Virus record (IMG/VR): IMGVR_UViG_3300017757_000188
Span: 1-21,849 of that record
Length of the DNA stretch: 21,849 bases
Direction: 5' to 3' (one strand)
Origin: a virus
A program made the translations under genes and the position numbers. Positions 1,776 through 20,352 of this stretch are shown here, piece after piece (position 1 is the stretch's first letter; each line of letters begins with the position of its first letter). The notes under the pieces are model-generated. The model did not search any database, had not been told where the DNA came from, and saw only the letters and a program-made list of their open reading frames with translations.

Positions 1776-2942
1776 ATGCTTGAGAATACTATAGAAGACT
1801 GCCTTGAACTACTTGCTGGATTTAGAAAAGAATCTGACAATTTTTCTCTAATGAAAGAAGACTATACTATTATGCATAGTATAGCCAGGCAAGTATTTAA
1901 AGGAACTGCACTTACAGATAGACAGTTTGCATTAATGCAAACAAAACTTCTTGCATATAAAGATCAGTTTGACAACGCCGATATTCCCTTAGAAATTAAT
2001 AAGCTAAGGCATCCTTTGCGAGAGATTAACAGAGAAAAATACATTACATTAAAAAATGATAAAATTAAAGTTAGGTTTCCTTTTAAGAAATCCGACATAA
2101 TGCTAATTAATGAAATATCTCATAAAGCTAAAGGATACAATCATAAAAAAGGATCACATGAACATTTCTTTGATTATACAGAAATAAATGTTTTAAATAT
2201 CCTTAATAGATTTGCTGGTAAAAGTTTTAAAATTGATACTGAATTAGTTGAGGTATATCATGAAATGAAACATATGGAAGCACAAAAAGAAAAATATGTT
2301 CCTGGTATTTTTGATATGCAAATACGTAATGTTAATCAATCAGCAAAAGAATTAATGGAATCAGACATAGGAAAATTAAATGATGACACATTTTTAAAAT
2401 ATGCTGATAGAAAATTCAAATACGGTTTGGCACATATAGATGTACTAGACCCAAAAAATATTACAGAGTCTATTGCATTTAGAAATACTGTTGTATACGA
2501 AAGCAAACCTAGTATAGAAACTTTAGATCAACTGCTAGGAAGTTTATGGCAACTTGATAGATTTCCTATGCTGGTTATTCTTAGTAAAGATAAAGCTGAA
2601 TTACAATTACATTCTATGCTTACGTACTATAGAGATATACTAAATTCAGATCAACAAAGTGTATTATTTAGATTAGATGATAAAAATGCAGGATTTAATC
2701 ATTTAGTCAAGGATAGAAAAGTTAATAATTGGGTTGACAAATCAACAAAAATAGTGTATATTAGTAAAGATAAACTACCCAAACTTCTTGTAAACTGTGA
2801 ATGTAAACCAACAGTAGCATTATGTTTTGATAGTATGCTTGATAAAACATTAGATACCTTTGTTACAGATACATGTGATTTAGTTATTTTTAGAGAAGAG
2901 TATCTAAGTCCATTTAGGAGACATAGTAGTATATATGGCTAG
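1776..2942 (+). CDS. Conserved-type phage protein of unknown function, upstream of uvsW
   Basis: 388 aa; I do not recognise a named family. The first 70 residues are acidic and helical. A central part carries basic clusters and a KVRFPF-type strand (about residues 94-99), followed by an H-K-K-G-S-H-E-H stretch near 126-133. The C-terminal third alternates hydrophobic strands with charged loops (LDRFPMLVILSKDKAE; KIVYISKDKLPKLLVN) in a way that suggests a Rossmann or RecA-like domain, but no Walker A motif is present. It is the first gene after a perfect promoter and its end overlaps uvsW by 8 bases, so it is co-transcribed with a recombination helicase. A role in recombination or replication is inference from that position only. 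Confidence 0.8.
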   Translation: MLENTIEDCLELLAGFRKESDNFSLMKEDYTIMHSIARQVFKGTALTDRQFALMQTKLLAYKDQFDNADIPLEINKLRHPLREINREKYITLKNDKIKVRFPFKKSDIMLINEISHKAKGYNHKKGSHEHFFDYTEINVLNILNRFAGKSFKIDTELVEVYHEMKHMEAQKEKYVPGIFDMQIRNVNQSAKELMESDIGKLNDDTFLKYADRKFKYGLAHIDVLDPKNITESIAFRNTVVYESKPSIETLDQLLGSLWQLDRFPMLVILSKDKAELQLHSMLTYYRDILNSDQQSVLFRLDDKNAGFNHLVKDRKVNNWVDKSTKIVYISKDKLPKLLVNCECKPTVALCFDSMLDKTLDTFVTDTCDLVIFREEYLSPFRRHSSIYG

Positions 2943-4398
2943 TTGTAGATTAATTATACAAGACGAGGTTAACATTAAACTTGAAGGCCTTGAGGTCGAT
3001 GTTCGTAGAAAGATTGCGAATGCACTCAAGTTTGAAGTTCCTTACGCTCGCTATATGCCACAATATAAGTTAGGAAGATGGGATGGCAAAGTTAATTTTT
3101 TCGGTATTGGTGGTACTGGATATGTTAATCATCTTGATACTATCGTGGGAGTTTTACAACGAAATAATGTTGAGATTGTTGATATACAAGACGACAGGCA
3201 TCCTATTACCTTAGACTTTAAGCCAGTAACAGAACGCTATTGGGCTGACAAAGGTGTTGTATGGCCAAAAGGTCATCCAGCAGAAGGTGAAGAAGTTATA
3301 CTAAGAGATTACCAAGTAGAAGCAATTAATAATTTTATTGCTAATCCACAAAGCTTGCAACAGATTGCTACTGGCGCAGGTAAAACAATTACAACAGCAA
3401 CACTATCACATATAGCTGAGCCTTACGGTCGTAGTATAGTTATTGTGCCTAACAAATCATTAGTAGCACAAACAGAAGAAGACTATATCAACTGTGGGCT
3501 CGACGTAGGGGTGTACTTCGGAGACAGGAAACAATTAGGTAAGACTCACACTATTTGCACTTGGCAAAGTTTGAATATACTTGACAAGAAGCACAAGGAC
3601 GGCACAGCAGTACTAGGGCTAGCTGAATTCCTAGAAGGTGTAAGCACTATTATTGTTGACGAAGTACACCAAGCGAAAGCAGAAGTTCTAAAAAACTTGT
3701 TGACTCGCAACCTACGTAACGCTCCAATACGTTGGGGATTAACTGGTACAGTACCTAAAGAGAAGTTTGAGTTTGAAAGTATTCATGCTTCATTAGGTCC
3801 AGTTATAGGAGAAATTAGTGCGAAGGAACTACAAGACAAAGGCGTACTAGCTCAATGCCATGTTAATGTGGTACAACTGATTGATACTGTTGCACATAGC
3901 AACTATCAAGAAGAATTAAAATATCTTGTTACGAATAAAGACAGGATAGACTATATAGGCAAAATGTTAAACTCAATATCACAATCAGGCAATACACTAA
4001 TACTAGTAGATAGAATTAGTGCAGGTGAAATGTTGCAGGAACTTATTCCTGATTCAACATTTGTTAAAGGCGATGTAAAATTAAAAGATAGGAAAGACAC
4101 GTACGACGAAATTAAAGAAGGTACAAACAAGGTAATTATTGCTACATATGGTGTTGCAGCTGTTGGTATTAATATACCAAGGATATTTAATCTTGTATTA
4201 ATTGAACCAGGCAAAAGTTTTGTAAGAGTAATCCAATCAATAGGCAGAGGCGTTAGAAAGGCTAAAGATAAAGACTTCGTTCAAATATGGGATCTAACTT
4301 CTACGTGCAAGTTTGCGAAGCGACATTTGACGCAACGTAAGAAGTTCTATAAGGAGGCACAATACCCCTTCACCATAGAAAAGGTAGATTGGAATTAA
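2935..4398 (+). CDS. uvsW: UvsW-type superfamily 2 DNA/RNA helicase
   Basis: 487 aa, close to T4 UvsW (about 500). T4 UvsW unwinds branched DNA and R-loops, promotes branch migration, and shuts down origin-dependent initiation so that replication becomes recombination-driven. Seen here: an N-terminal domain with YKLGRWDGKVNFF (44-56) typical of UvsW; the Q-motif region LRDYQ (123-127); Walker A ATGAGKT (145-151); DEVH box (242-245); motif III LTGT (269-272); motif V region GVAAVGINIP (406-415); and motif VI QSIGRGVRK (434-442) with the arginine finger. All core helicase motifs are intact. The start overlaps the preceding gene by 8 bases. The next gene follows after 3 bases. Confidence 0.95.
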   Translation: MASCRLIIQDEVNIKLEGLEVDVRRKIANALKFEVPYARYMPQYKLGRWDGKVNFFGIGGTGYVNHLDTIVGVLQRNNVEIVDIQDDRHPITLDFKPVTERYWADKGVVWPKGHPAEGEEVILRDYQVEAINNFIANPQSLQQIATGAGKTITTATLSHIAEPYGRSIVIVPNKSLVAQTEEDYINCGLDVGVYFGDRKQLGKTHTICTWQSLNILDKKHKDGTAVLGLAEFLEGVSTIIVDEVHQAKAEVLKNLLTRNLRNAPIRWGLTGTVPKEKFEFESIHASLGPVIGEISAKELQDKGVLAQCHVNVVQLIDTVAHSNYQEELKYLVTNKDRIDYIGKMLNSISQSGNTLILVDRISAGEMLQELIPDSTFVKGDVKLKDRKDTYDEIKEGTNKVIIATYGVAAVGINIPRIFNLVLIEPGKSFVRVIQSIGRGVRKAKDKDFVQIWDLTSTCKFAKRHLTQRKKFYKEAQYPFTIEKVDWN

Positions 4399-4401
4399 TA
4401 T

Positions 4402-4908
4402 ATGAGAATACTAACATTAGAAAATAAGTGCTTTAGCTTAGAAGATTTACCCGAACAAATAGACGATGATGTTCGATTTAGCGTACTTGATAATTCTGAC
4501 CCTGCAAATCCTGATTTCTTTTTTGTTCCTCTTATTTTCTTAGAATCATTTAGTGCTCCTGCTATGGTTTTAAATATAGGCGGGCAAGAAATCACTATGC
4601 CAGTTGATTGGAGTTTGGCTGTAGGGTGCAGCGAAAGTGGTATGGATTTAGAAATTCTACCATTAACAAGTATTAATGACAGAGGATTTGAAGCGTTTAT
4701 GTTTAATCCATTATCAAGTTACAAAATGGACTTTGCTCCTATAAATATTGTAAACTTCTATACTGATGTAAAATGGTACTTTCCCAAAATGAAAAACGGA
4801 CAGTTACTTACTATACCGATTGACACTACTGACAAACCTCGATGTGCATTTTTTGTTAAAGACATAAGTAGGCAATGCGAAGTAATAGAATATTCAAAGT
4901 TAATCTAG
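4402..4908 (+). CDS. Hypothetical phage protein after uvsW
   Basis: 168 aa; not recognised. It is acidic and mostly beta-strand in character, with repeated short hydrophobic strands (FFFVPLIFLESF, MVLNIGGQEITM, IVNFYTDVKWYFP). There are no signal peptide, membrane helix or cysteine clusters. It begins 3 bases after the uvsW stop, with only a weak GGA upstream, and is followed 11 bases later by the first oxygenase gene, so it is part of the same operon. Compact all-beta folding is plausible, but no function can be assigned. Confidence 0.75.
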   Translation: MRILTLENKCFSLEDLPEQIDDDVRFSVLDNSDPANPDFFFVPLIFLESFSAPAMVLNIGGQEITMPVDWSLAVGCSESGMDLEILPLTSINDRGFEAFMFNPLSSYKMDFAPINIVNFYTDVKWYFPKMKNGQLLTIPIDTTDKPRCAFFVKDISRQCEVIEYSKLI

Positions 4909-4919
4909 AAAGGAATAAC

Positions 4920-5561
4920 ATGGAATGGTCGACGACAGAAAAAAAATTAGACAGTGAAAATATCTATCACAGATATTTAAACCTTCCTTTTGATATTACA
5001 AAACACCCTGTATGTGATACACAACCTGAGGGCATGTATCATCAAGAGCTTAATCCGTGGATTTGTAAAAATTTAAATAATTTTCTAGGCAAACTAGGGC
5101 TTTTTATAAATGATGTGGTTGCTTATTATACTCCTCCAAATGGATTTTTGCCTATACATGTTGACGGTAAAAAAATAGATAATCGTTCAAAAATTAATAT
5201 CACATGGGGTCCCGTCGGAGGCACTACAAGATGGTGGTCTCATAATGAATCAAAAAAGATGGCAAATGTAGGAGAAATCTTTAAAGGTAAAAAAGAAATA
5301 CTTGATAATATAAAAAATAAACACTTTTGGTTCCCTGCAAAAGAAGACTGCGAATTAGTACACGAAGCATCTACTAATAAAGTTAGTTTAGTTAATGTAG
5401 GTCAATTTCATTCAACATATAATCCGCATCCAACAGAGGGCCGATGGACACTATGCTTTGTACCAATAAGTCATAAATTAAAATATGATCTAGGGCGTAG
5501 TCATCTTACATTTAAAGAATCACTAGAAGCATTTGGCCCGTATATAAAGGAAAGTAGATGA
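4920..5561 (+). CDS. 2-oxoglutarate/Fe(II)-dependent oxygenase-like protein, copy 1
   Basis: 213 aa from the ATG at 4920, chosen over an in-frame ATG at 4875 because AAAGGA sits 6 bases upstream and the earlier start would lie inside the previous gene. The fold resembles the aspartyl/asparaginyl beta-hydroxylase class. Residues 77-82 FLPIHVD give the H80-x-D82 iron ligands, then KINITWGP, GTTRWW, a distal H164 (GQFHSTYNP) and R175 (GRWTLCF), 11 residues later, to hold 2-oxoglutarate. The family hydroxylates proteins or small molecules using Fe(II), O2 and 2-oxoglutarate; the substrate here is unknown. The next gene is a diverged duplicate that begins in ATGA overlap with its stop. Confidence 0.7.
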   Translation: MEWSTTEKKLDSENIYHRYLNLPFDITKHPVCDTQPEGMYHQELNPWICKNLNNFLGKLGLFINDVVAYYTPPNGFLPIHVDGKKIDNRSKINITWGPVGGTTRWWSHNESKKMANVGEIFKGKKEILDNIKNKHFWFPAKEDCELVHEASTNKVSLVNVGQFHSTYNPHPTEGRWTLCFVPISHKLKYDLGRSHLTFKESLEAFGPYIKESR

Positions 5562-6172
5562 GAGATAATATCTATCATAGATATTTAAAACTTCCATTTG
5601 ATATAACAAAGCCAGAAGTTTTAAATACAACTCCGGAAAAATGGAGACATGAAGACATTAACCCCTGGAAGTGTAATAATGTAGAAACATGGTTGAATTC
5701 ATTAGGATTATATACTTGCCATACTGAAGTGTTTTATACTCCTCCCAATCACGGGGAGATACCAATTCATTGTGATGATGTAACTATTGATGATCGTGCT
5801 AAAATAAACATTACATATGGTCCTGATACAGGAACTATAAGATGGTGGGAATCTAGCAAAGCACAACAAATTGTAGGAACAGATGCTGCACAAGAAATGT
5901 TAGGTAGTGAAGCTGTATCAGATGATTTTTCAGAAAGGACGCACCATAATTTAGTTGCATTAAAAGAAGATTGTGAATTAGTACACGAAGCGAATACTAA
6001 TAAAGTAAGTTTAGTTAATGTAGGACGACTACATTCAACTTATAATCCAGATTCAACACAAGGAAGATGGACACTGTGTTTTGTGCCAGCTAGTTTAAAA
6101 TTAGAAGGCAGAAGATACTTAACGTTTGAAGAAGCAGTAGAAGCATTTGAAGACTATATAGAAGGAGATTAA
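5558..6172 (+). CDS. 2-oxoglutarate/Fe(II)-dependent oxygenase-like protein, copy 2
   Basis: 204 aa. It is clearly paralogous to the preceding gene. Shared blocks include IYHRYL, LPFDITK, YTPPN, IPIH.D, KINIT.GP..GT.RWW, EDCELVHEA.TNKVSLVNVG and HSTYNP...GRWTLCFVP. Iron ligands H71-x-D73 and distal H159, and 2-oxoglutarate-binding R170, are retained, so both copies look catalytically competent. The two differ most between the RWW and EDCELVHEA blocks (about 100-135), where substrate contacts would be expected, suggesting different targets. It starts in ATGA overlap with copy 1 and is followed 1 base later by a cupin. The substrate is unknown. Confidence 0.7.
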   Translation: MRDNIYHRYLKLPFDITKPEVLNTTPEKWRHEDINPWKCNNVETWLNSLGLYTCHTEVFYTPPNHGEIPIHCDDVTIDDRAKINITYGPDTGTIRWWESSKAQQIVGTDAAQEMLGSEAVSDDFSERTHHNLVALKEDCELVHEANTNKVSLVNVGRLHSTYNPDSTQGRWTLCFVPASLKLEGRRYLTFEEAVEAFEDYIEGD

Positions 6173-6173
6173 A

Positions 6174-6533
6174 ATGGGAATCAAAGCTGGTAAAATTTGG
6201 GGTAACACAGAGTTAGTCCATGCAAATGGTGTATTAGAATTTCACCGTATTGAATATAAAGCAGGATACAAATGTTCAGAGCATGAACATCAATTTAAAT
6301 GGAATGGCTTCTTTGTTGAGTCAGGCGAAATGCTAATTCGTGTTTGGCAAGATGGCGCACAAGAAGGTTTAGTCGATGAAACTATTTTAAAAGCAGGTGA
6401 CTTTACACAAGTTAAACCTGGCAAGATACATCAGTTTGAAGGACTAAAAGATGGTGTAGCATTTGAGCTATATTGGGCAGAGTTCAATCACGATGACATT
6501 GTAAGACGCACTATTGGTACACCGGTAAAATAA
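6174..6533 (+). CDS. Single-domain cupin protein
   Basis: 119 aa, the usual size of a one-domain cupin. Motif 1 is SEHEHQFKWNGFFVESGE, with metal ligands H37, H39 and probably a nearby E. Motif 2 is AGDFTQVKPGKIHQFEG, with H86. The beta-barrel fold binds a metal and usually a small sugar or acid substrate. Relatives include mannose-6-phosphate isomerase C-domains, sugar epimerases and small dioxygenases. Lying between oxygenases and Kdo-synthesis genes, a role in sugar chemistry is possible but is inference. Its stop shares one base with the next ATG (TAATG). Confidence 0.75.
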   Translation: MGIKAGKIWGNTELVHANGVLEFHRIEYKAGYKCSEHEHQFKWNGFFVESGEMLIRVWQDGAQEGLVDETILKAGDFTQVKPGKIHQFEGLKDGVAFELYWAEFNHDDIVRRTIGTPVK

Positions 6534-6808
6534 TGAGTGATCTAAAAACTGGCGAAGCACTTATATACGAAAGAGTTGATAACGTTGTGTATGCACGTTA
6601 CAGAGATGAACCTTATAAAGACATTCCGAGATGGATTATAGGCGGAGATGCAGATGGCATCAATCGTGCTAAAGCAAAGGAACAAGGAGACTTGTTTACA
6701 TATAAAGACTGGCAAGAAATAACAGAGCTGGCTAGAACAAACAAGACATTAAAAAAATGTCTTTCAAAAGTTTTAGATATCTATTTACTATCAAAGGAGA
6801 ACAAATGA
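6533..6808 (+). CDS. Small hypothetical protein
   Basis: 91 aa, not recognised. The N-terminal half is strand-rich with many aromatic and charged residues (EALIYERVDNVVYARYRDEPY). The second half is helical and basic (ARTNKTLKKCLSKVLDIYLL). It has no membrane helix. It is coupled on both sides: TAATG with the cupin and ATGA with the phosphoribosyltransferase. Position alone does not reveal function. Confidence 0.7.
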   Translation: MSDLKTGEALIYERVDNVVYARYRDEPYKDIPRWIIGGDADGINRAKAKEQGDLFTYKDWQEITELARTNKTLKKCLSKVLDIYLLSKENK

Positions 6809-7257
6809 CAGAACTATTTCAACTTGGTAACTTTACCAGCCACGCAGGATTATCACTTCAATGGAAACTAGAATGTGATGCTATTACAGATGAAGAATGG
6901 AAGTGTCTAGCAAAGATGATTATGGATTATCAAGATCGTCCATTCAGTGAAGCAGTTGGTATACCTCGTGGAGGACTAAAACTAGCCGAAGCGTTAAACG
7001 AATATGCATCTGGTAACTCCGACGACTTTCCTTTAATATGTGATGATGTGTTTACTACAGGCACAAGTATGTTAGATTTCATAGACGAAACGTATCCTAC
7101 TTTTACACAAGGAATGGGACATAGATGGGTAGTATTTGCACGTAAGCCAAGTAATGTTTATCCATACTTTACACGAGCATTATTTACAATGCCACCAAAG
7201 CCTTATGTACAGAAAGAATCTTGGGACGACGAAACTTTAATAATGAGAAATGAATAA
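6805..7257 (+). CDS. Phosphoribosyltransferase-domain protein (PRTase type I)
   Basis: 150 aa from the ATG at 6805, which has AGGAG upstream and forms ATGA with the previous stop; an in-frame ATG at 6757 is inside that gene. GIPRGG (52-57) matches the pyrophosphate loop, and LICDDVFTTGTS (77-88) is the PRPP-binding signature with two adjacent aspartates followed by TTGT. The family transfers ribose-5-phosphate from PRPP to bases such as orotate, adenine or hypoxanthine. It is shorter than full-length orotate PRTase (about 210), and the hood region that selects the base is reduced, so the acceptor is unknown. It may serve nucleotide salvage, perhaps supplying CTP for CMP-Kdo, but that is inference. 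Confidence 0.8.
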   Translation: MTELFQLGNFTSHAGLSLQWKLECDAITDEEWKCLAKMIMDYQDRPFSEAVGIPRGGLKLAEALNEYASGNSDDFPLICDDVFTTGTSMLDFIDETYPTFTQGMGHRWVVFARKPSNVYPYFTRALFTMPPKPYVQKESWDDETLIMRNE

Positions 7258-8039
7258 TGATTAGAATAATTGCAGGACCTTGCCAACACGAAAGCTTAGA
7301 ACATAGCTTAGAGATTGCACAACATTGTGCAGATGTATGTCGTAAGTATGGTGCAGAATATTATTTTAAAGCTAGTTTTGATAAAGCTAATAGAAGTAGC
7401 ATGAAAGGCAAGCGTGGAGTAGGCTTTAATACAACACTACATGACTTTCAAGAGATACGTGGTGTAGTGGGCTCTAAGACGCTCACAGACGTTCATACAG
7501 TAGAACAAATTAAAGACATAGTAAACTACTACAATGATGCTGTAGACGTGCTACAGATACCTGCATTCTTATGTAGACAAACTGATTTACTACAAGCGGC
7601 TTGTGCTACAGATAAAATTGTAAACATTAAGAAAGGCCAGTTCCTTGCACCTTGGGACATGGACGGTATACTATCAAAGACAGAAGGTGCTAAAGATGTT
7701 TGGATAACAGAGAGAGGAACAAGTTTTGGATACAATACTCTTGTTGTTGACTTTACTGGTTTGGACTATATGCTTCATAATTATAGCACCCCTGTGGTAC
7801 TTGATGCCACGCACGGAGTACAGAAACCAGGCGGTCTTGGAGGCAGTAGCGGCGGTAATCGCGATTACGTTCCTGGCTTATGCCGTGCAGGTAGTGCTTT
7901 GGGGATTAGGAATTTCTTTATAGAAGTACACCCTGACCCAGATAATGCACCAAGTGACGGTCCTAATATGCTAAAGCTAGAGGACTTTGATCGAGTAGTA
8001 GGAGAGATACATGAATACAGCTATACTAATACCGGCTAG
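7257..8039 (+). CDS. kdsA: 3-deoxy-8-phosphooctulonate (Kdo-8-P) synthase
   Basis: 260 aa, close to the bacterial enzymes (about 260-285). It condenses arabinose-5-phosphate and phosphoenolpyruvate into Kdo-8-phosphate for LPS or capsule. The AGPC segment at residues 6-9 places Cys9 where metal-dependent KdsA enzymes carry a metal ligand; the metal-independent E. coli type has Asn there. The other three ligands of that class are also seen: H186 (ATHGVQKPG), E223 (FFIEVHPDP) and D234 (APSDGPN). FKASFDKANRSS (37-48) and CRQTDLL (106-112) are hallmark substrate-binding segments. The start forms TAATGA with the preceding stop, and the end overlaps kdsB by 29 bases, so translation is coupled. An active metal-dependent enzyme is expected. 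Confidence 0.93.
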   Translation: MIRIIAGPCQHESLEHSLEIAQHCADVCRKYGAEYYFKASFDKANRSSMKGKRGVGFNTTLHDFQEIRGVVGSKTLTDVHTVEQIKDIVNYYNDAVDVLQIPAFLCRQTDLLQAACATDKIVNIKKGQFLAPWDMDGILSKTEGAKDVWITERGTSFGYNTLVVDFTGLDYMLHNYSTPVVLDATHGVQKPGGLGGSSGGNRDYVPGLCRAGSALGIRNFFIEVHPDPDNAPSDGPNMLKLEDFDRVVGEIHEYSYTNTG

Positions 8040-8691
8040 GTTAGCATCAACACGCTTCCCTGAAAAGCCGTTGAAGTTACTTAACGGAGTACCGATGATA
8101 CGTAGAGTATACGATCGTTGCTTAGAGACGGGCTTAGACACCTTTGTGCTTACAGATAGTAAGCGTATAGCTAGTTTATTTCCTAAAGGAAATATAGTTG
8201 TACATGACGATCCTTACGAAAACGGTACTGAAAGATGTGCAGGTGTATTGAGAGATAGTAGGTTCGACCAATACAAACAGTTTATAAATGTACAAGGTGA
8301 TATGCCAGATGTAACTGTTGATATTATTGAAAAATGTATTTGGCATTTAAAAAATTATTCAGTTACTTCGGTGTATACACAAATGCCTGAAGAAAAACAA
8401 AATGATCCAAGTTCAGTAAAAATGGTACGTGCTGGTGATCAAGCACTGTGGTTTGGCAGAGGCTTAACTGGTTATGGCGACTGGCATCTGGGAGTATATG
8501 GATACAAACGTAATCCATTAGAACTGTATAGTAAACTAGAAGTAACCCAGGAAGAAGAAGTAGAAAAATTAGAACAACTCCGATGGTTAAAAAACGGTTG
8601 GCAAGTAGGAGTTTTGAGTGTACAATATAATGGTATGGAGATTAATACTCCGGAGGACTTAGAAGAATGGCACAGCAAAAACTCCCAGTAA
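8011..8691 (+). CDS. kdsB: 3-deoxy-manno-octulosonate cytidylyltransferase (CMP-Kdo synthetase)
   Basis: 226 aa, a little shorter than typical KdsB (about 240-255). It transfers CMP from CTP to Kdo, giving CMP-Kdo, the donor for Kdo transferases. Seen: the N-terminal nucleotide loop IPARLASTRFPEKPL (7-21); ENGTERCA (70-77) in place of the usual SGTDR; FINVQGDMPD (91-100) with metal-binding D97; VYGYKR (162-167); KLEQLRWLKNGW (186-197); and a C-terminal INTPEDLE (211-218). In ordinary KdsB the last motif is DTPEDLE, whose Asp helps hold the catalytic Mg; here it is Asn212. The QGDEP motif is also altered (QGDMP). The fold is clear; activity or metal use may differ. It overlaps kdsA by 29 bases and the next gene by 25. 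Confidence 0.88.
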   Translation: MNTAILIPARLASTRFPEKPLKLLNGVPMIRRVYDRCLETGLDTFVLTDSKRIASLFPKGNIVVHDDPYENGTERCAGVLRDSRFDQYKQFINVQGDMPDVTVDIIEKCIWHLKNYSVTSVYTQMPEEKQNDPSSVKMVRAGDQALWFGRGLTGYGDWHLGVYGYKRNPLELYSKLEVTQEEEVEKLEQLRWLKNGWQVGVLSVQYNGMEINTPEDLEEWHSKNSQ

Positions 8692-9125
8692 AAGATATAC
8701 TTGCGGCAATTGACATGAATGCAAAGAGTGTGTGGGATGAGTTGTCTGACGAAGAACGCAAGCAAGTTAGTTTTTGGTTACTTAACAGATATGCTAGTAG
8801 CGTTGTAGGTAATCGAGATAAGCAAGAACTTGCTGTATTTAAAACAAATGAATACTATAACAAAAATTTTAATGTACTAGGTACAAGGCATCCTAAATTA
8901 CAATGGCAATTGCTTTGTGCAAGTTGTGCAACTGGTAAAATTGAATTTCACAAATGGATTGGATTTAAAAAGAAAACTAGTGATAATAGCAAAGGCGAAA
9001 AGTTATTACAAGACATTTACCCAAATATGAAAATAGACGAGGCGGAATTACTTGCTAGAATATCTACAAAAAAAGAACTCAAACAACTTGCTGAAGAACA
9101 TGGGATTGAAAATGTCAAACTCTGA
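8667..9125 (+). CDS. gp62: Probable clamp-loader small subunit (T4 gp62-like)
   Basis: 152 aa. In T4, gp62 joins four gp44 ATPase subunits to load the gp45 sliding clamp; it has no ATPase site. Seen here: a helical N-terminal part (QVSFWLLNRYASSV), a central segment LQWQLLCASC.....FHKWIGFKKK whose spacing matches the middle of marine T4-like gp62 proteins, and a C-terminal helix KKELKQLAEEHG resembling the end of T4 gp62 (KQLKKLALEW). There are no Walker motifs, as expected. Overall similarity by eye is weak, and the usual partners gp44 and gp45 are outside this window. It overlaps kdsB by 25 bases and the zinc-finger gene by 14. Alternative: an unrelated helical phage protein. Confidence 0.5.
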   Translation: MAQQKLPVKDILAAIDMNAKSVWDELSDEERKQVSFWLLNRYASSVVGNRDKQELAVFKTNEYYNKNFNVLGTRHPKLQWQLLCASCATGKIEFHKWIGFKKKTSDNSKGEKLLQDIYPNMKIDEAELLARISTKKELKQLAEEHGIENVKL

Positions 9126-10316: not shown

Positions 10317-10560
10317 AAAGTTAATTAAAACATTACAACAAGGCGTAGCAACGATTACTTTTGAAAAAATTAACACAGGCGAAATACGTGTTATGCCATG
10401 TACATTAAAAAAAGATCTTATGGGAGTAAATTCATTTAGTCTTGAGAATATTAATCCAGAAAGTAAAAGTATAGTAGTATATGCATTGGATAAAAAAGCA
10501 ATAAGAGATGTAATGGTAGACACAATAACATCTTGGCATAAAGGATCAACAAATGCCTGA
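10303..10560 (+). CDS. WYL_2/SH3-like small beta-barrel protein
   Basis: 85 aa from the ATG at 10303, preceded by GAGGAA at a good distance; an ATG at 10291 lacks this. The pattern TITFEKINTGEIRVMPCTLKKDL, then VVYALDKKAIRDVMVDTI, matches a small SH3-like barrel common in T4-like phages, known as the WYL_2/DUF2693 family. Its exact function is unknown; nucleic-acid or regulatory binding has been proposed for the fold. It overlaps the deformylase gene by 14 bases and the DnaE-like gene by 8. Confidence 0.65.
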   Translation: MQDLEKLIKTLQQGVATITFEKINTGEIRVMPCTLKKDLMGVNSFSLENINPESKSIVVYALDKKAIRDVMVDTITSWHKGSTNA

Positions 10561-11116
10561 TATTGATATAGATTTTGCAGATAGAACAGTTATCTTAGAT
10601 CAACTTAAACATAGAGTTGCAAAATTAGATACAGGCAAAAAACATAATACTGGTATATATGCTAATGAAATACCACACAACCCTATTGACAACTTGTCAA
10701 CAATAGAACATAAGACAGCAGAAGAACGCGGTTATTTTAAACTAGACTTTCTCAATGTAAGCATTTACAAGGATGTAGAGAACGAACAACACTTAACACA
10801 ATTAATAGAAAGAGAACCCATATGGCAACTTTTGGAACACGACGACTTCAACGAAAAAGTATTTCATGTAAACGGACACGGAGAACTATTAAGGCAATTG
10901 AAACCTACCTCGGTAGAACAATTGGCAGCGACACTAGCAATAATACGTCCAGCGAAGAGACACTTAGCAACAGAACAATGGTCGCATATAATGGAACACG
11001 TTTGGACAAAGCCCACGGACGGTAGTTACTATTTTAAGAAAGCACATGCTGTAAGCTATGCTGTAGCCGTAGTAGTGCATATGAATTTGCTATGTGAACA
11101 GATGGTTAGTCTCTAG
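10553..11116 (+). CDS. Miniature DnaE-like (DNA polymerase III alpha) catalytic-core protein
   Basis: 187 aa. Segments match the C-family polymerase core in order, with large deletions between them. PDIDIDF (2-8) corresponds to PDFDVDF with the palm aspartates. KHNTGIYA (30-37) corresponds to KHAGGVVI. YFKLDFLNV (61-69) corresponds to VKFDFLGL, with Asp65 as the third catalytic acid. VFHVNGHGELLRQLKP (103-118) corresponds to VFQLESRGMKDLIKRLQP. LAIIRPAK (128-135) corresponds to ALFRPGP. FKKAHAVSYA (161-170) corresponds to FNKSHSAAYA. Full DnaE is about 1,100-1,200 aa, so PHP, most of the fingers, the clamp-binding part and the OB domain are absent. All three acids are kept, so activity or nucleotide binding is possible. 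It overlaps the preceding gene by 8 bases and ends tail-to-tail with a minus-strand gene, overlapping 11 bases. Confidence 0.7.
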   Translation: MPDIDIDFADRTVILDQLKHRVAKLDTGKKHNTGIYANEIPHNPIDNLSTIEHKTAEERGYFKLDFLNVSIYKDVENEQHLTQLIEREPIWQLLEHDDFNEKVFHVNGHGELLRQLKPTSVEQLAATLAIIRPAKRHLATEQWSHIMEHVWTKPTDGSYYFKKAHAVSYAVAVVVHMNLLCEQMVSL

Positions 11117-11480
11117 GTGGCTTGCGTACTAACTGTACACTCTTTCGCTTAATTCGTTTTACAGCTAAGTTATTCAAATTAACACACGGTCCAATACTAA
11201 CTTTCACATCTTTACTATTCATCGTCATTATACAATATTTAAATTTTATCATTTCTTGACTTAAAAATATATTGATTGGAATCATTCTATTTGATTCCCA
11301 CCACCATACTTCGCCAAGTTCTAAAAACTTTTCTTGTTCTTTTTTTGTATTTAAATCTGTATAAACGTACATGCTAGTGACACTGGCATCTTGATTGATA
11401 ACTATACCAATGTATTCTTTTCCACCATAGTTAACCACACTTAAAAATGGAAAATTATTTTGTATATCTTTAGTTAACAT
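11106..11480 (-). CDS. Hypothetical phage protein, lone minus-strand gene
   Basis: 124 aa from the ATG at 11480; a TTG at 11516 would extend it into the neighbour's start. An AGGAA lies 14 bases upstream, which is long. The layout is: an N-terminal beta segment (LSVVNYGGKEYIGIVI), a VWWWES motif after an acidic helix, and a strongly basic C-terminus (KRIKRKS). This resembles a conserved hypothetical family of marine T4-like phages, with LSVVEY- and VWW-type blocks and a basic tail. Function unknown. It is flanked head-to-head by the virion gene at 11511, leaving only 30 bases for both start regions. Confidence 0.65.
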   Translation of the reverse strand: MLTKDIQNNFPFLSVVNYGGKEYIGIVINQDASVTSMYVYTDLNTKKEQEKFLELGEVWWWESNRMIPINIFLSQEMIKFKYCIMTMNSKDVKVSIGPCVNLNNLAVKRIKRKSVQLVRKPPRD

Positions 11481-11498
11481 TAATTGATTATTATTTCC

Positions 11499-11506
11499 TA
11501 TAAATA
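11499..11506 (+). promoter_or_regulatory. T4-late-type promoter (TATAAATA) directly before an ATG
   Basis: TATAAATA, a perfect match to the T4 late promoter box read by the gp55 sigma factor, ends 4 bases (caat) before the ATG at 11511. In T4, transcription starts about 5-7 bases after this box, so the mRNA would begin at or next to the start codon. There is no Shine-Dalgarno sequence. The downstream product looks like a virion protein, which is the expected late class. Confidence 0.8.
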
Positions 11507-11510
11507 CAAT

Positions 11511-12299
11511 ATGCAATTGCTACCAAGATATTTAGTCGAACAAACAACCACACTTGTCGCAGATGTGGCAGGATTCATTACGGAGTATAGGCCAGTGTAT
11601 AATAGAGACATAGAAGTTTATAAAGGCATCGATAATGCTTTACAATTTAGATTATTAAATGCAGACCAAAAAGGAATAAATTTATCTGCAGGATACACAG
11701 TTAAGTTTTGTGCATATGACGAAACTGATAGACTGATAGTAGAAAAAGATGCAACTATTCAAGATGATGGTAGTACAATTTCAAGAGGTAAATTTAACGT
11801 TGATATTACAGAAAATGAATTAAAAAATTTACAACAACAATTCTTAAGTTATGTAGTTTATCTTGTTAAGCCTTCTGGTGATAAAGTATTAACATATTCT
11901 CAAAGTAATTTTAAAAATAACGGTACTATATTCATAAATTCAAAAACCTTTCCTGGACCGCTTAATACTACTTCGATAACATCATTAACAGAAACTGGTG
12001 CTAACACAAGTATATGGATGTCAGAAGCAGTAAGTGCAGAACCTGCTGTGAATGGTAATGAAGCATTACATACAGCTGCATTTTATACAAGTAACTTTAC
12101 AGGTGATATAGTAGTCCAAGCTACCCTAGATAATCAAGTAACAGATAGTAGTAACTGGGCAGACGTTACAACAGTAACATTTGAAGGTGGCACTGGCGCA
12201 CCAAAACCAGTAAATTTTAATGGTGTATTTTCGTATATTAGATTCAAAACTACATCGGATCCAGCAGATAAGATTACCAAAATCCTAGTCAGAAACTAG
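11511..12299 (+). CDS. Probable virion structural protein (tail/neck or fibre-associated)
   Basis: 262 aa from the ATG at 11511; the in-frame ATG at 11484 lies upstream of the late promoter box and inside the divergent gene's leader. The first ~135 residues form a beta-sandwich resembling phage baseplate-upper-protein N-domains: DIEVYKGIDNALQFRLLN, SAGYTVKFCAYDETDRLIVE, DDGSTISRGKFNVDIT, then LSYVVYLV. The second part (about 160-262) is another all-beta, Ser/Thr/Gly-rich domain. Such two-domain proteins recur among virion proteins of marine T4-like phages. Its late promoter agrees with a structural role. It could contact host sugars, but no binding site is identifiable. Confidence 0.65.
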   Translation: MQLLPRYLVEQTTTLVADVAGFITEYRPVYNRDIEVYKGIDNALQFRLLNADQKGINLSAGYTVKFCAYDETDRLIVEKDATIQDDGSTISRGKFNVDITENELKNLQQQFLSYVVYLVKPSGDKVLTYSQSNFKNNGTIFINSKTFPGPLNTTSITSLTETGANTSIWMSEAVSAEPAVNGNEALHTAAFYTSNFTGDIVVQATLDNQVTDSSNWADVTTVTFEGGTGAPKPVNFNGVFSYIRFKTTSDPADKITKILVRN

Positions 12300-14164: not shown

Positions 14165-14786
14165 TGATGAATATAGATCGAAACTATTAGAAATATCTAA
14201 AAGTCATGGCAAGAAAGTTCCAGGCGCAAAGTATATACACAAATGGGATATGTACATGCTTGAAAAACAATTTTGCGTTGACAATATGAATTTCGAAGGC
14301 ATTAACTCTGTGCTCGAAATAGGATGCGGTATGGGCATGCTTGCACACCTTATTAGAGAACAAAAGGGTATTACTGATATAGAACTAACAGATGTAGATG
14401 AATTTTTTGATCACACAGACAAAGGTGGATTATATAAAGACTGTTGTGATGTGCTAGGACTCAAACGATTTGTTATGTATGTTAACATGAATGAACCCAT
14501 GAAACTAGATAGACAGTATGATATGATTGTAGCTACACGTACTGTATTTGACAGAGAATGTTTAGAACCAGGCACAGTATTTAATTATGAATATTGGCTA
14601 GATGATTGTTTTAAATATTGCAAACGTGTATTTGTAAAAACAAATTTTGCCGGAGGTGGGAAAAGTTTTCCTGATTATTTGCGTCCTTACTTGTGGTGGC
14701 CTAAAGGACCTAACGGAGAATCGTTAGGTAAGCCTAGGAGAGGATGGTATATACGTGTAGACAAAGAACAATGGGAGAAGAGATGA
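14157..14786 (+). CDS. SAM-dependent methyltransferase (class I)
   Basis: 209 aa. Motif I, SVLEIGCGMGMLAHL (51-65), forms the SAM-binding glycine loop, followed by an acidic residue at the end of the next strand (IELTDVDEF) that would hold the ribose. YDMIVATRTVF (about 121-131) corresponds to motif IV. The C-terminal part (FNYEYWLDDCFKYCKRVFVKTNF) is a typical late strand-helix-strand. No target-recognition domain is visible, so a small molecule, sugar or protein target is likelier than DNA. It is ATGA-coupled to the carbamoyltransferase gene, which suggests a joint role in decorating a sugar or other small product. Confidence 0.8.
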   Translation: MNNDEYRSKLLEISKSHGKKVPGAKYIHKWDMYMLEKQFCVDNMNFEGINSVLEIGCGMGMLAHLIREQKGITDIELTDVDEFFDHTDKGGLYKDCCDVLGLKRFVMYVNMNEPMKLDRQYDMIVATRTVFDRECLEPGTVFNYEYWLDDCFKYCKRVFVKTNFAGGGKSFPDYLRPYLWWPKGPNGESLGKPRRGWYIRVDKEQWEKR

Positions 14787-15751
14787 TCACATGGGGAATG
14801 GTTGGTAACAGCCATGATGCAAGTTTAGCTGTTTTTAAAGATAACGAATTAAAGTCCGCAGTACTATCTAAAGACTACAGTAAGATTCTTAATGACCCTC
14901 ATCCTAATTGGAATATGATTAATACAGCTAAACAAGAGTTTGGCGAACCTGATCTTATACAGTGGTACGAACTACCTAAGCTAAAGACACTACGTCAATA
15001 TTATGCTGGGCAGGGTTGGCTATGGCAAGAGAATAATATCAAACAATATCTCAAACAATGGAACATCACTGCTCCAATAAAGTATACTAAGCATCATCTA
15101 AGTCATGCAGCATACGCATACTATACTCAGCCACATGACGACTGTGCGATTATTGTAATGGATAGCATAGGGGAATTTGAAACCCTAACTATGTGGCATG
15201 GTAAAAATAACAAACTTAAGAAGATACATAGTCAAGGATATCCACATAGTTTAGGATTATTCTATAGTGCTATGACACAACGTTGTGGGCTAGTTCCTAA
15301 TAGAGATGAATACATGGTAGCTTCTATGGGAGATGCTGGTACTCCTAAAAGACATTTTATGAAAATACTAAACGAACTAGTACACGTTGAAGGCATTGGA
15401 TGGAACCCTAAGATTAAGATGATGGAAAATTTGCATAGAGGTTGTAGATGGTGGAGACCCGAACTAACTAGCGAAGAGGATCTTAATGATATTGCGGCAG
15501 CTACGCAAAAAGTATTTGAGTATTGTGTTAACAATCTAAGTGCGTGGGCTAAAAAAACAACAGGGTCAAAATACGTAGCACTAGCAGGCGGCTCGGCCCT
15601 TAACAAAAGAGCAGTAGATAACATAAGAAATGATTGGGTTGATGTTCACGTTCCGCATAACCCAGGTGACCCTGGTAGTTGTGTAGGGGCATATCTAGCA
15701 GTAACTCAAACCAAAATAGAACTTGACAATCAGTGGTATAAGGCAGTATAA
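14783..15751 (+). CDS. Carbamoyltransferase N-terminal domain protein (NodU/CmcH/TobZ type)
   Basis: 322 aa from the ATG at 14783, in ATGA overlap with the methyltransferase stop; ATG at 14744 lies inside that gene. The family carbamoylates sugars or antibiotics using carbamoyl phosphate and ATP. Seen: GNSHDASLAVF near the N-terminus (family GxxHDAS); HHLSHAAYAYY (104-114), the metal-binding HxxxH site of the Kae1-like domain; VMDSIGEFET (125-134); HSLGLFYSAMT; EYMVASMGDAG; and a final ALAGGSALNKRAVDN plus HVPHNPGDPGSCVGAYLAV. The protein stops after the Kae1-like domain; the second domain, normally about 200 residues more, is missing. The acceptor is unknown. Its TAA stop lies within the -10 box of the helicase promoter. 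Confidence 0.82.
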   Translation: MITWGMVGNSHDASLAVFKDNELKSAVLSKDYSKILNDPHPNWNMINTAKQEFGEPDLIQWYELPKLKTLRQYYAGQGWLWQENNIKQYLKQWNITAPIKYTKHHLSHAAYAYYTQPHDDCAIIVMDSIGEFETLTMWHGKNNKLKKIHSQGYPHSLGLFYSAMTQRCGLVPNRDEYMVASMGDAGTPKRHFMKILNELVHVEGIGWNPKIKMMENLHRGCRWWRPELTSEEDLNDIAAATQKVFEYCVNNLSAWAKKTTGSKYVALAGGSALNKRAVDNIRNDWVDVHVPHNPGDPGSCVGAYLAVTQTKIELDNQWYKAV

Positions 15752-17979: not shown

Positions 17980-18720
17980 ATGAACAAACTATGGATATTT
18001 GCAGACAGTTTTGGCGCAGAACCTAATGCCGCCTACGATTTTCAAAACAGAGATGATTGGATATGGTGGAAGCAGGCTGCAGAACGTATGAATCTACATG
18101 CTATGCCCTGCTGTGATTGGGGCGTTAGTAACGAATGGCTCTACTACGCAATGAAAACAGAATACCAAAATATGGTTCCAGGTGACAAACTTGTGTTGAT
18201 TACTACTGACCCTAATCGTAGATGGTTCTTTAAAGACTATCAATCGCATGCTAATATATGGAATCGTGATATTGAAGAAGATCTAGGCAAGCCAAAAGCC
18301 CAAGCTATTAAACAATACCTTACTCATCTCACTGAAAATCCTATACTAAGCGAATGCTATCATGAAACCATAGTGGGCTGGGCCTATGCTGTGTTTAATT
18401 CAATAGACATAACTGTGTGTGCAATACCTGGATTTGCAAATACGCCTATGCACGTTGTAAATGAAAGTTGTTTGTCAAATGTAAGCAATGCAGAATTTAC
18501 ATCAAAAGAAATAATGGATTATCATTACGAAAGGACTGGTTACAAAGACAGTAGGGTTTGTCATTTCAGCAGAGATAATCACCAAGTGCTAGCAGATAAA
18601 ATAGTTACATTCTTTGAAGACCCTAGTCAAAATATAGATCTCTCAACAGGCTTTGTGCAAAACATATTCCGCACTAAACAGGATTGCGATGAGTTTGATT
18701 ATACAGCAACTTCAAAGTAA
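17980..18720 (+). CDS. SGNH/GDSL-hydrolase-like protein
   Basis: 246 aa. The N-terminus WIFADSFG (5-12) parallels the GDS block with nucleophile Ser10; Ala replaces the usual Gly. GVSN (48-51) fits block II, TTDPNRR (75-81) may stand for block III, and HFSRDNHQVLADKI (195-208) resembles block V, although the Asp is two rather than three residues before His201. Family members cleave esters, often acetyl groups on sugars. The substrate is unknown; deacetylation of a surface glycan would fit the sugar genes here. Nothing resembling a Shine-Dalgarno lies in the 12 bases before the ATG. The last 22 bases overlap the end of the convergent radical SAM gene. Confidence 0.62.
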   Translation: MNKLWIFADSFGAEPNAAYDFQNRDDWIWWKQAAERMNLHAMPCCDWGVSNEWLYYAMKTEYQNMVPGDKLVLITTDPNRRWFFKDYQSHANIWNRDIEEDLGKPKAQAIKQYLTHLTENPILSECYHETIVGWAYAVFNSIDITVCAIPGFANTPMHVVNESCLSNVSNAEFTSKEIMDYHYERTGYKDSRVCHFSRDNHQVLADKIVTFFEDPSQNIDLSTGFVQNIFRTKQDCDEFDYTATSK

Positions 18721-20339
18721 GTGTTTTTAATTTCACGTTTATTATATACTTCTTTAAAAAATAGTTCTCTACCTTGTTCAAGAAATGCAGGACCTACGTC
18801 AGTCTTAAGTAGTGTATCTAACTTTTGTATACTATTCATCTTGCTGTTTATGTAAGGTTTCATTATCGTTTCCCATTGTCCTTGAAATCCCCATATGTTT
18901 TTATGTCTAGGATCAGTATTGCTCATATCTAAAAGTCCTTGTATATTATTTTCAAACATAGGTACATAGTGTAGTATACTAAAACTGCCCAGTTTCTGAT
19001 GATTAAGTTCATGTATTTCTTCTTGCCAACGGGTACAAAATGCGGAAGCTTGTTCAATAGTAGCATGATCATGTTCCCATTTCAAATTACTAACGTGTAT
19101 GTTTTCAGTTTTGTGCTGTACTCCTGCGTGACTTGCTTTCATTCCATATTTTTCTTCATACGCTGCAAGACGTGCAGGATCTTCTATGCGCCTAAATCCA
19201 CTGGTAGCCCAGTTCTTTGTGAGATCGCTTGAAGTACTAGTGTCAGTGTTTAGGCTGATGTCCAACGGATACCATTGCCAGTTTTGGCCGTTCCAATTGT
19301 CTTTGAGCCACTGTTCTGACTCTTTCCAGTCATCAGGTGTTTCATATCGTAGTCCTGCGATCATACTCACTGTGCCTCTATATAAGCCTAGCTCACTCAT
19401 AAAATAATCACGCATGTCCAGTAGACCCTGTTTGATTCTATCGCCACTCATGCTTTTACCTATGGTTTTACCTGCATCTTGATTGAAGGTTTCAATACCA
19501 TAGTACTGTCCCCACACACGAGCTCTTGCTAGTTTAGCTATCTGTTGTGGTCTTGCAACAGTGAGATCCAGTCGCACAAAGCCCGAGAAGTTGACTTCAA
19601 ACGGCAGGCTTTGAACTACATCACCCATCATGTCTAGTTTTGATTCTCTGTCGTTGAGTGTTTCATCTGCTAGTAGATAGTTGGTTGTTCCCCAGCGTTC
19701 ATAGTTATCTATTAGCTCTGCACGTAGTTGCTCAAAGTTAGTGTGTGTTTCTTCACGCACACCTAGAAAAGGAAAGTTACAAAACTTGCATTTAAACTTG
19801 CAGCCTCTTGATACTTCTATGGTGAGCATTTCATGAGGTAGTAAAAAGTCATCATCTCTGTAGTTGATGCCGTAGGTTGGCAAGCTCATAGCTGGATAGT
19901 CTATAATACAATCTATGAGAACACCGTCCATGTGTATTCTGTGCTTGGGAGATTTGCCACCATCAAACATCCATGTGATAGTTTCTGGCAAGGCTAATTC
20001 CGAATAGCCATACATCATTACATCAAAGCCCACTGAATCTTGATAGTGTTGCTGTCCACCTGCTAGATACTTGCGACCAGGATAGCGTTTACGAAGTTTT
20101 GAAATTGCACCACGTGTCCACCAAGGTGTCATCCATGTGTATGAGAATGCAAACAGTAGAGTGTTGTCTCCAACTATAGCATCTAGATAGTGCAACAACT
20201 GATCTTCTGGCCAATCACATGCCCAGTCTACGACTGTTACACGCCATCCCATTGATTCCATTTGATTAGCAAATCTATAAGCACCACTTGTACGCCTCTT
20301 TACTTCTTGATTAGCGTTAAAAATTATACAGTGTTTCAT
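18699..20339 (-). CDS. Radical SAM enzyme with N-terminal B12-binding-like domain
   Basis: 546 aa from the ATG at 20339; an ATG two codons earlier (20345) lies within the last base of the late promoter box, so the inner one is preferred. Residues about 1-170 form a Rossmann-like domain as in B12-binding radical SAM proteins (AGGQQHYQDS; YGYSELALPETI). SRGCKFKCKFCNF carries CxxxCxxC (C180, C184, C187) for the 4Fe-4S cluster that cleaves SAM. GQYYGIETFNQDAGKTIGKS fits later barrel strands. The reaction is unknown; marine phages carry related proteins. No DxHxxG cobalamin motif is evident, so B12 binding is doubtful. Late timing is suggested by the promoter. Confidence 0.82.
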   Translation of the reverse strand: MKHCIIFNANQEVKRRTSGAYRFANQMESMGWRVTVVDWACDWPEDQLLHYLDAIVGDNTLLFAFSYTWMTPWWTRGAISKLRKRYPGRKYLAGGQQHYQDSVGFDVMMYGYSELALPETITWMFDGGKSPKHRIHMDGVLIDCIIDYPAMSLPTYGINYRDDDFLLPHEMLTIEVSRGCKFKCKFCNFPFLGVREETHTNFEQLRAELIDNYERWGTTNYLLADETLNDRESKLDMMGDVVQSLPFEVNFSGFVRLDLTVARPQQIAKLARARVWGQYYGIETFNQDAGKTIGKSMSGDRIKQGLLDMRDYFMSELGLYRGTVSMIAGLRYETPDDWKESEQWLKDNWNGQNWQWYPLDISLNTDTSTSSDLTKNWATSGFRRIEDPARLAAYEEKYGMKASHAGVQHKTENIHVSNLKWEHDHATIEQASAFCTRWQEEIHELNHQKLGSFSILHYVPMFENNIQGLLDMSNTDPRHKNIWGFQGQWETIMKPYINSKMNSIQKLDTLLKTDVGPAFLEQGRELFFKEVYNKREIKNTYFEVAV

Positions 20340-20344
20340 AGTCA

Positions 20345-20352
20345 TATTTATC
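20345..20352 (-). promoter_or_regulatory. T4-late-like promoter (GATAAATA) before the radical SAM gene
   Basis: GATAAATA on the minus strand, one mismatch from the T4 late box TATAAATA, ends 5 bases (tgact) before the ATG at 20339. This spacing matches the other two late-type promoters in the window, which have 4-base gaps. No Shine-Dalgarno is possible in so short a leader. Confidence 0.55.

Follow-up and report, generated by a model that had tools for sequence, protein, structure and literature searches.

A tandem pair of Fe(II)/2-oxoglutarate-dependent oxygenases with a divergent insert, from a multi-copy family of marine phages

Genes for 2-oxoglutarate (2OG)-Fe(II) oxygenases are present in 14 of 16 cyanophages (PMC3037559), S-SCSM1 carries 24 of them (PMC9602691), and multi-gene expansions of these oxygenases are described in pelagiphages (PMC9599517). 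Such marine T4-like phages have many divergent 2OG genes per phage, of unstudied function and often accompanied by cell-wall or LPS genes. Marine phages are therefore on record as carriers of 2OG oxygenases in several copies; here we describe a family without a model in the profile libraries searched, two members of which lie side by side in a 21,849-nt stretch of viral DNA (IMG/VR record IMGVR_UViG_3300017757_000188, hereafter the window). Whereas the S-SCSM1 enzymes carry PF13640, PF13661, PF13759 and PF05721, the window family matches none of these, and unlike those expansions it forms overlapping tandem arrays of itself. A partial parallel is found in the unrelated cyanophage S-SCSM2R, where two annotated 2OG oxygenases, an amidinotransferase, KdsA, KdsB and a glycosyltransferase lie together (L154 4246-11505); neither of the two oxygenases is a member by the family profile. 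Four neighbouring hypothetical proteins of this phage look by eye like mutual paralogues. KdsA has also been recorded in a marine phage genome (PMC5332604). Our searches of an open-licence library listed no description of the family or of its tandem arrays.

The oxygenase pair and its relation to known enzymes

As originally predicted, positions 4920-6172 of the window hold two adjacent paralogous open reading frames (ORFs), which are identical at 106 of 203 residues (52%, E 9e-75 by pairwise comparison).

4920..5561, + strand: oxygenase A (P0001, 213 aa), with H80 at 5157-5159, D82 at 5163-5165, H164 at 5409-5411 and R175 at 5442-5444
5238..5339, + strand: the insert that varies in oxygenase A (roughly residues 107-140), lying between core beta strands
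5558..5561, + strand: ATGA start/stop overlap of oxygenases A and B, read from the sequence
5558..6172, + strand: oxygenase B (P0002, 204 aa), with H71 at 5768-5770, D73 at 5774-5776, H159 at 6032-6034 and R170 at 6065-6067
5849..5959, + strand: the corresponding insert in oxygenase B (roughly residues 98-134), from the alignment and the AF2 model

The pattern of near-identical ends around a divergent middle, also part of the prediction, was borne out: amino-acid identity reaches 83% in the N-terminal block (18 codons) and 67-80% in the C-terminal block, against 21-26% in alignment windows 106-150, which span the insert; identical residues thus cluster in the N-terminal strand motif and in the iron/2OG core. 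Recent gene conversion as the source of the near-identical end blocks was rejected, as it left no synonymous-site signal (synonymous-codon agreement 26/38 for the end blocks versus 29/54, Fisher p 0.20, no significant rise). Since this codon-level signal is not significant, the likeness of the end blocks probably reflects selection. Each start is preceded by a Shine-Dalgarno-like AAGGA stretch, at 4910-4914 for A and at 5547-5551 for B; the latter, inside the end of the oxygenase A gene, may serve oxygenase B as its ribosome-binding site. The ATGA coupling had been read as implying equal co-expression; the overlap is indeed there, but an ATGA overlap alone does not demonstrate equal expression. 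A promoter and terminator scan of 2900-8800 was uninformative, with 28 promoter-like sites versus 21.7 (sd 4.3) in shuffles.

Neither protein has a credible family match in Pfam or PHROGs, and it is because of motif and predicted fold that we assign both to the Fe(II)/2OG-dependent oxygenase superfamily. This assignment, which agrees with the original one, is supported by a complete facial triad and 2OG-binding Arg, kept in both copies as H80/D82/H164/R175 in A and H71/D73/H159/R170 in B. Far from being substituted in most homologues, the H-x-D...H iron ligands are each present in 53/53 non-redundant family members, and the Arg that follows the distal His in 52/53, the exception being a Leu in one of the five L003 copies; ligands and Arg are likewise invariant or nearly so in 24 aligned members. 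AF2 models of the two proteins (pLDDT 90.2 for A and 91.0 for B) predict a double-stranded beta-helix (DSBH), in which the variable stretch lies between beta strands and is modelled less confidently (block-wise pLDDT of about 60-83). The top structural matches to both models are Fe/2OG oxygenases, including amino-acid hydroxylases and halogenases. For B, the best solved structure is 7v4f (Z 9.1, rmsd 3.0 over 121 residues), followed by BesD/HalA-type enzymes and proline 3-hydroxylase (Z 8.3), and for A the matches include 7v4m (Z 8.9), proline 3-hydroxylase (8.1) and AspH 5apa (8.0 over 138 residues). A Z of 8-9 between model and structure is modest, showing the fold and picking no substrate; a literature search on the 7v4f enzyme found no paper. 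The best BFVD matches, A0A6J5TBF2 and A0A6J5LJN6 from uncultured Caudovirales phages (TM 0.77/0.85 and 0.76/0.82, 21-22% identity), are uncharacterised and unannotated, and hence carry no functional information.

By sequence, the nearest known kind appears to be the PF05118 type (Asp/Asn beta-hydroxylase), and the kinship of the family with Asp/Asn hydroxylases is marginal. The two have in common the DSBH fold, an aligned distal H...R segment and a weak profile similarity: hhalign of the family against three phage PF05118 proteins gave a probability of 15% (E 0.0018, N-terminal half misaligned), higher than for phage PF13640-like (0.3%) and TauD-like (2.2%) oxygenases, kinship with which we rejected. 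When run against 488 ORFs, the family profile matched two phage PF05118 proteins. The match on the L025 contig (E 5.5e-7) is confined to the distal H...R segment; in that on the L036 contig (2e-4), both the H-x-D and the H...R line up with those of the family. The family differs from PF05118 in its strict H-x-D triad, and PF05118 matches 0/24 members at E <= 0.1. Against Pfam as a whole the 24 members gave four single-member matches, all at chance level, with 0/24 for the AlkB and TET/JBP profiles, and against NCBIfam none matched at E <= 0.1. A sequence search of solved structures returned none for P0002 and nothing credible for the family profile.

Copy number and origin of the pair

Scans of viral contigs, which were not exhaustive and one of which took the best 80 of 88, placed the family on at least 96 distinct contigs. 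Genome contigs yielded just two relatives, L151 (PBPT01000082.1, 153 kb) and L152 (PBPT01000016.1, 335 kb), both from one Marinimicrobia MAG; over 10.6 kb each matches viral contig L018 at 99.9% identity, and they are probably (large-)phage contigs in that bin. Cultured phage records yielded no match for P0002 or an L003 copy, and one at chance level (E 5) for P0001. For copy number, members were called at a family-profile E <= 1e-6 within the stretch covered around each locus, which for most loci includes about 4-5 kb of flank, so that distant copies would be missed. On this count, at least two members are present on 9 of the 96 viral contigs as well as in the window, in six lineages. Two copies are found in the window species (window, L001 and L002), L020, L127 and L035 (with one gene between), four overlapping copies in L129/L134/L135 and five in L003.

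L003:2432-5563: five overlapping tandem copies, one with Leu for the 2OG-binding Arg
L129:2177-4603: four overlapping tandem copies

The pair itself sits in a slot with conserved neighbours on both sides, followed by genes for 3-deoxy-octulosonate (Kdo) synthesis.

4402..4908, + strand: phrog_11279 (unknown function), conserved upstream neighbour, with homologues mostly in jumbo phages
6174..6533, + strand: cupin, conserved downstream neighbour (Pfam Cupin_2, E 3.5e-7)
7257..8039, + strand: KdsA, 3-deoxy-8-phosphooctulonate synthase (NCBIfam, over curated cut-off)
8011..8691, + strand: KdsB-like CMP-Kdo synthetase (NCBIfam E 6e-50, below curated cut-off)

Retention of a single copy in close relatives had been named as evidence against the original prediction, and this is largely what we found. 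The slot (phrog_11279, oxygenase, cupin) holds one copy in 10/10 other lineages, and beyond the window the pair is kept only in L001 and L002, which differ from the window at 0 and 1 bases in 2140. Their near-identity argues that the pair is no assembly artefact of one sample, although all three records are of the same species.

A tree of 53 rows makes the L013 protein the sister of B (support 100/98) and puts A next (95/93), and the branch of A measures 0.74 versus 0.10 for B. Forcing A and B to be sisters was rejected (p-AU 0.014), as was forcing the L020 pair (AU p 0.0002), the AU test being imperfect with such long branches. We accordingly set aside a recent tandem duplication of the window pair and of the L020 pair; for A and B, rejection as closest sisters points either to an old duplication with loss or to capture of a second divergent copy. 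Copies 2 and 3 of L129 are sisters (100/98), suggesting that this array grew at least partly in place. It seems that both routes are taken, expansion in place and assembly from divergent copies (or old duplication followed by loss). The single L013 protein combines the N-terminal extension of A with the body of B. Such a protein would result from a deletion between tandem copies, and equally from loss in B of an ancestral extension, since L011 and L014 also have the extension.

Several comparisons indicate that the upstream copy, A, is evolving faster with its catalytic residues kept. Over 66 columns in which at least 8 of 9 others agree, A departs in 11 and B in 3, and with L011 as reference A has 37 unique changes versus 12 in B (p 5e-4). 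Tajima-type counts make A the faster copy with 6/9 references (p 2e-12 to 0.049) and not with the other three (p 0.07-0.49); these tests are interdependent, and L013 is no true outgroup. Within the slot clade (55 pairs), the median amino-acid identity of the oxygenase is 57%, against 88% for the product of 2935-4398, which we take to be a helicase from the order of annotated homologues in phage Phosso, 79% for phrog_11279, 89% for the cupin and 73% for KdsA; ORFs as divergent or more are 1776-2942 (45%) and 6533-6808 (56%). Fast divergence beside conserved neighbours is as expected of a gene tracking a changing target; relaxed constraint or gene replacement would look no different.

Of the duplication followed by specialisation first proposed, retention of both active sites is supported, and divergence is so in modified form, with A the faster copy; a simple, recent duplication is rejected by the AU test. 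A lineage-specific tandem duplication of recent date, with one copy under relaxed constraint and little functional meaning, strikes us as quite unlikely: the single copy in 10/10 syntenic relatives and the faster upstream copy would suit it, but both active sites are intact, dN/dS of the pair is about 0.34 (NG86, dS near saturation) and the AU test argues against a recent sister pair. An obligate heterodimer of A and B, for which the overlapping genes and the common ancestry of the two proteins might speak, is more improbable still, as the single-copy relatives must function alone or as homodimers.

Gene neighbourhoods and candidate substrates

Homologues of phrog_11279 occur in 59 phage records; among the 30 matches listed, 29 are in records of 284-490 kb and one in a record of 94 kb. 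Because the matches among those listed fall mostly in this size range, the window probably represents part of a jumbo-phage genome. The cupin is found in 11/42 representative loci, namely 10/11 slot loci and L014, and KdsA in 9/11 slot loci, the other two (L021 and L069) ending before the KdsA position. Among the family-bearing records tested, 3/16 have KdsA, several of the 13 without it being fragments, and on the L014 record (126 kb) the oxygenase and cupin persist without KdsA. Given these two observations, the link of the family to Kdo may be mere co-location. KdoO, the Kdo 3-hydroxylase, is a 2OG oxygenase acting on Kdo, and was an attractive candidate since KdsA and KdsB lie downstream of the pair. 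Its profile, PF11004, matches 0/24 members, and we rejected this identity; PF11004 has no match in the window, the control genomes being silent too, and KdoO is not among the 50 structural matches listed, which excludes nothing.

Elsewhere in the window, a PF02543 carbamoyltransferase lies at 14744-15751, 8.5 kb from the oxygenase pair, and this N-domain protein adjoins a methyltransferase-like gene. The short ORF at 10553-11116 (187 aa), which adjoins an ORF on the minus strand (11106-11516), hits a DNA polymerase PHROG at E 5e-60, possibly a sign of a split polymerase gene. A radical SAM protein encoded at 18699-20345 (−) has a homologue on the L036 contig (L053:77-1663).

Other lineages place the family in different company. 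In the L025-L037 lineage it is accompanied by a class III aminotransferase, SAM decarboxylase, tryptophan halogenase, further 2OG oxygenases and a number of radical SAM proteins, together with an arginine-type amidinotransferase that most resembles HsvA and StrB; L129 has the aminotransferase and amidinotransferase in common with it, and L003 has an amidinotransferase, SAM decarboxylase and ketoacyl synthase nearby. ThyX (11 loci), PhoH and a carbamoyltransferase (5 loci) lie near the family in the L080-L128 group, and TauD-type and PF05118 oxygenases surround the family gene in L036 and L149. PF02543 carbamoyltransferases are present in 10/20 family-bearing records, with five matches in the 119-kb record G022. 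We also observed a biosynthetic-looking phage cluster with halogenase, aminotransferase, amidinotransferase, SAM decarboxylase, radical SAM and 2OG genes in L025, L026, L029 and L033 (e.g. L025:1535-10263), and several adjoining 2OG oxygenases of different families at L036:4171-7919 and L149:2424-7759.

The explanation that we favour, to which we would give a little short of an even chance, is that A and B are two active Fe(II)/2OG oxygenases of one phage family that hydroxylate small polar or sugar substrates in a tailoring pathway. Translated from overlapping genes, the two enzymes would each consume O2 and 2OG in hydroxylating small polar molecules that are related yet distinct, most probably sugars, nucleotide-sugars or building blocks of that kind. 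The pathway in the window lineage would be that of the KdsA/KdsB and cupin gene cluster, and in other lineages that of the amidinotransferase/halogenase/aminotransferase clusters. The tandem would go back either to an old duplication of which relatives lost one copy, or to a divergent homologue captured next to the resident gene.

The neighbourhoods are mostly biosynthetic, and for this reason we prefer tailoring of a small molecule or glycan to hydroxylation of a protein. We also count in favour of our reading the slot synteny, the gene grouping of the unrelated S-SCSM2R and the arrays of four and five overlapping copies. A protein substrate had been proposed from likeness to the Asp/Asn hydroxylases, an argument weakened by the 0/24 matches to PF05118 and the profile-profile probability of 15%, and by the PF05118 fold class, which also includes free amino-acid hydroxylases. 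Hydroxylation of a protein, be it virion, ribosomal or host, is to our mind unlikely. The oxygenase A model does match AspH, as given above, as well as the ribosomal oxygenases MINA53 and ycfD (Z 7.6-7.8), and genuine PF05118 genes over cut-off occur in 5/14 family-bearing records, but AspH is without the acidic iron ligand that the strict H-x-D of the family supplies, and the neighbouring genes are metabolic, not structural. We rate slightly lower the modification of nucleic acid bases, for example to hydroxymethyl pyrimidines for a carbamoyltransferase. The PF02543 genes of the family-bearing records and of the window would fit, as would AlkB among the Foldseek matches, and a phage-type 5hmC carbamoyltransferase has been described (PMC8670742). 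Against this, neither TET/JBP nor AlkB profiles match in Pfam, AlkB structures match the models at Z 7.5-7.7, no better than other 2OG oxygenases, the carbamoyltransferase of the window is distant from the pair, and 4-5-copy arrays occur in records in which no carbamoyltransferase was found (G001 and G021). We keep base modification in view because of the ThyX/carbamoyltransferase context of the L080-L128 group, which with PhoH suits nucleotide chemistry at least as well as glycan or small-molecule tailoring.

Returning to the tailoring of small polar substrates, we suggest only tentatively that the family as a whole expands locally into arrays of one to five overlapping copies with diverging inserts and a fixed core, an evolving hydroxylase set within surface-glycan or small-molecule clusters of marine, probably often jumbo, phages, in which copies would be shuffled from lineage to lineage and not simply duplicated. 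Among the numerous marine-phage 2OG oxygenases of unstudied function, the family would offer a clean case, in which the chemistry is fixed, the insert variable and the copies number from one to five, and in which the contexts suggest concrete substrates: Kdo synthesis, amidinotransferase/halogenase clusters and ThyX/carbamoyltransferase.
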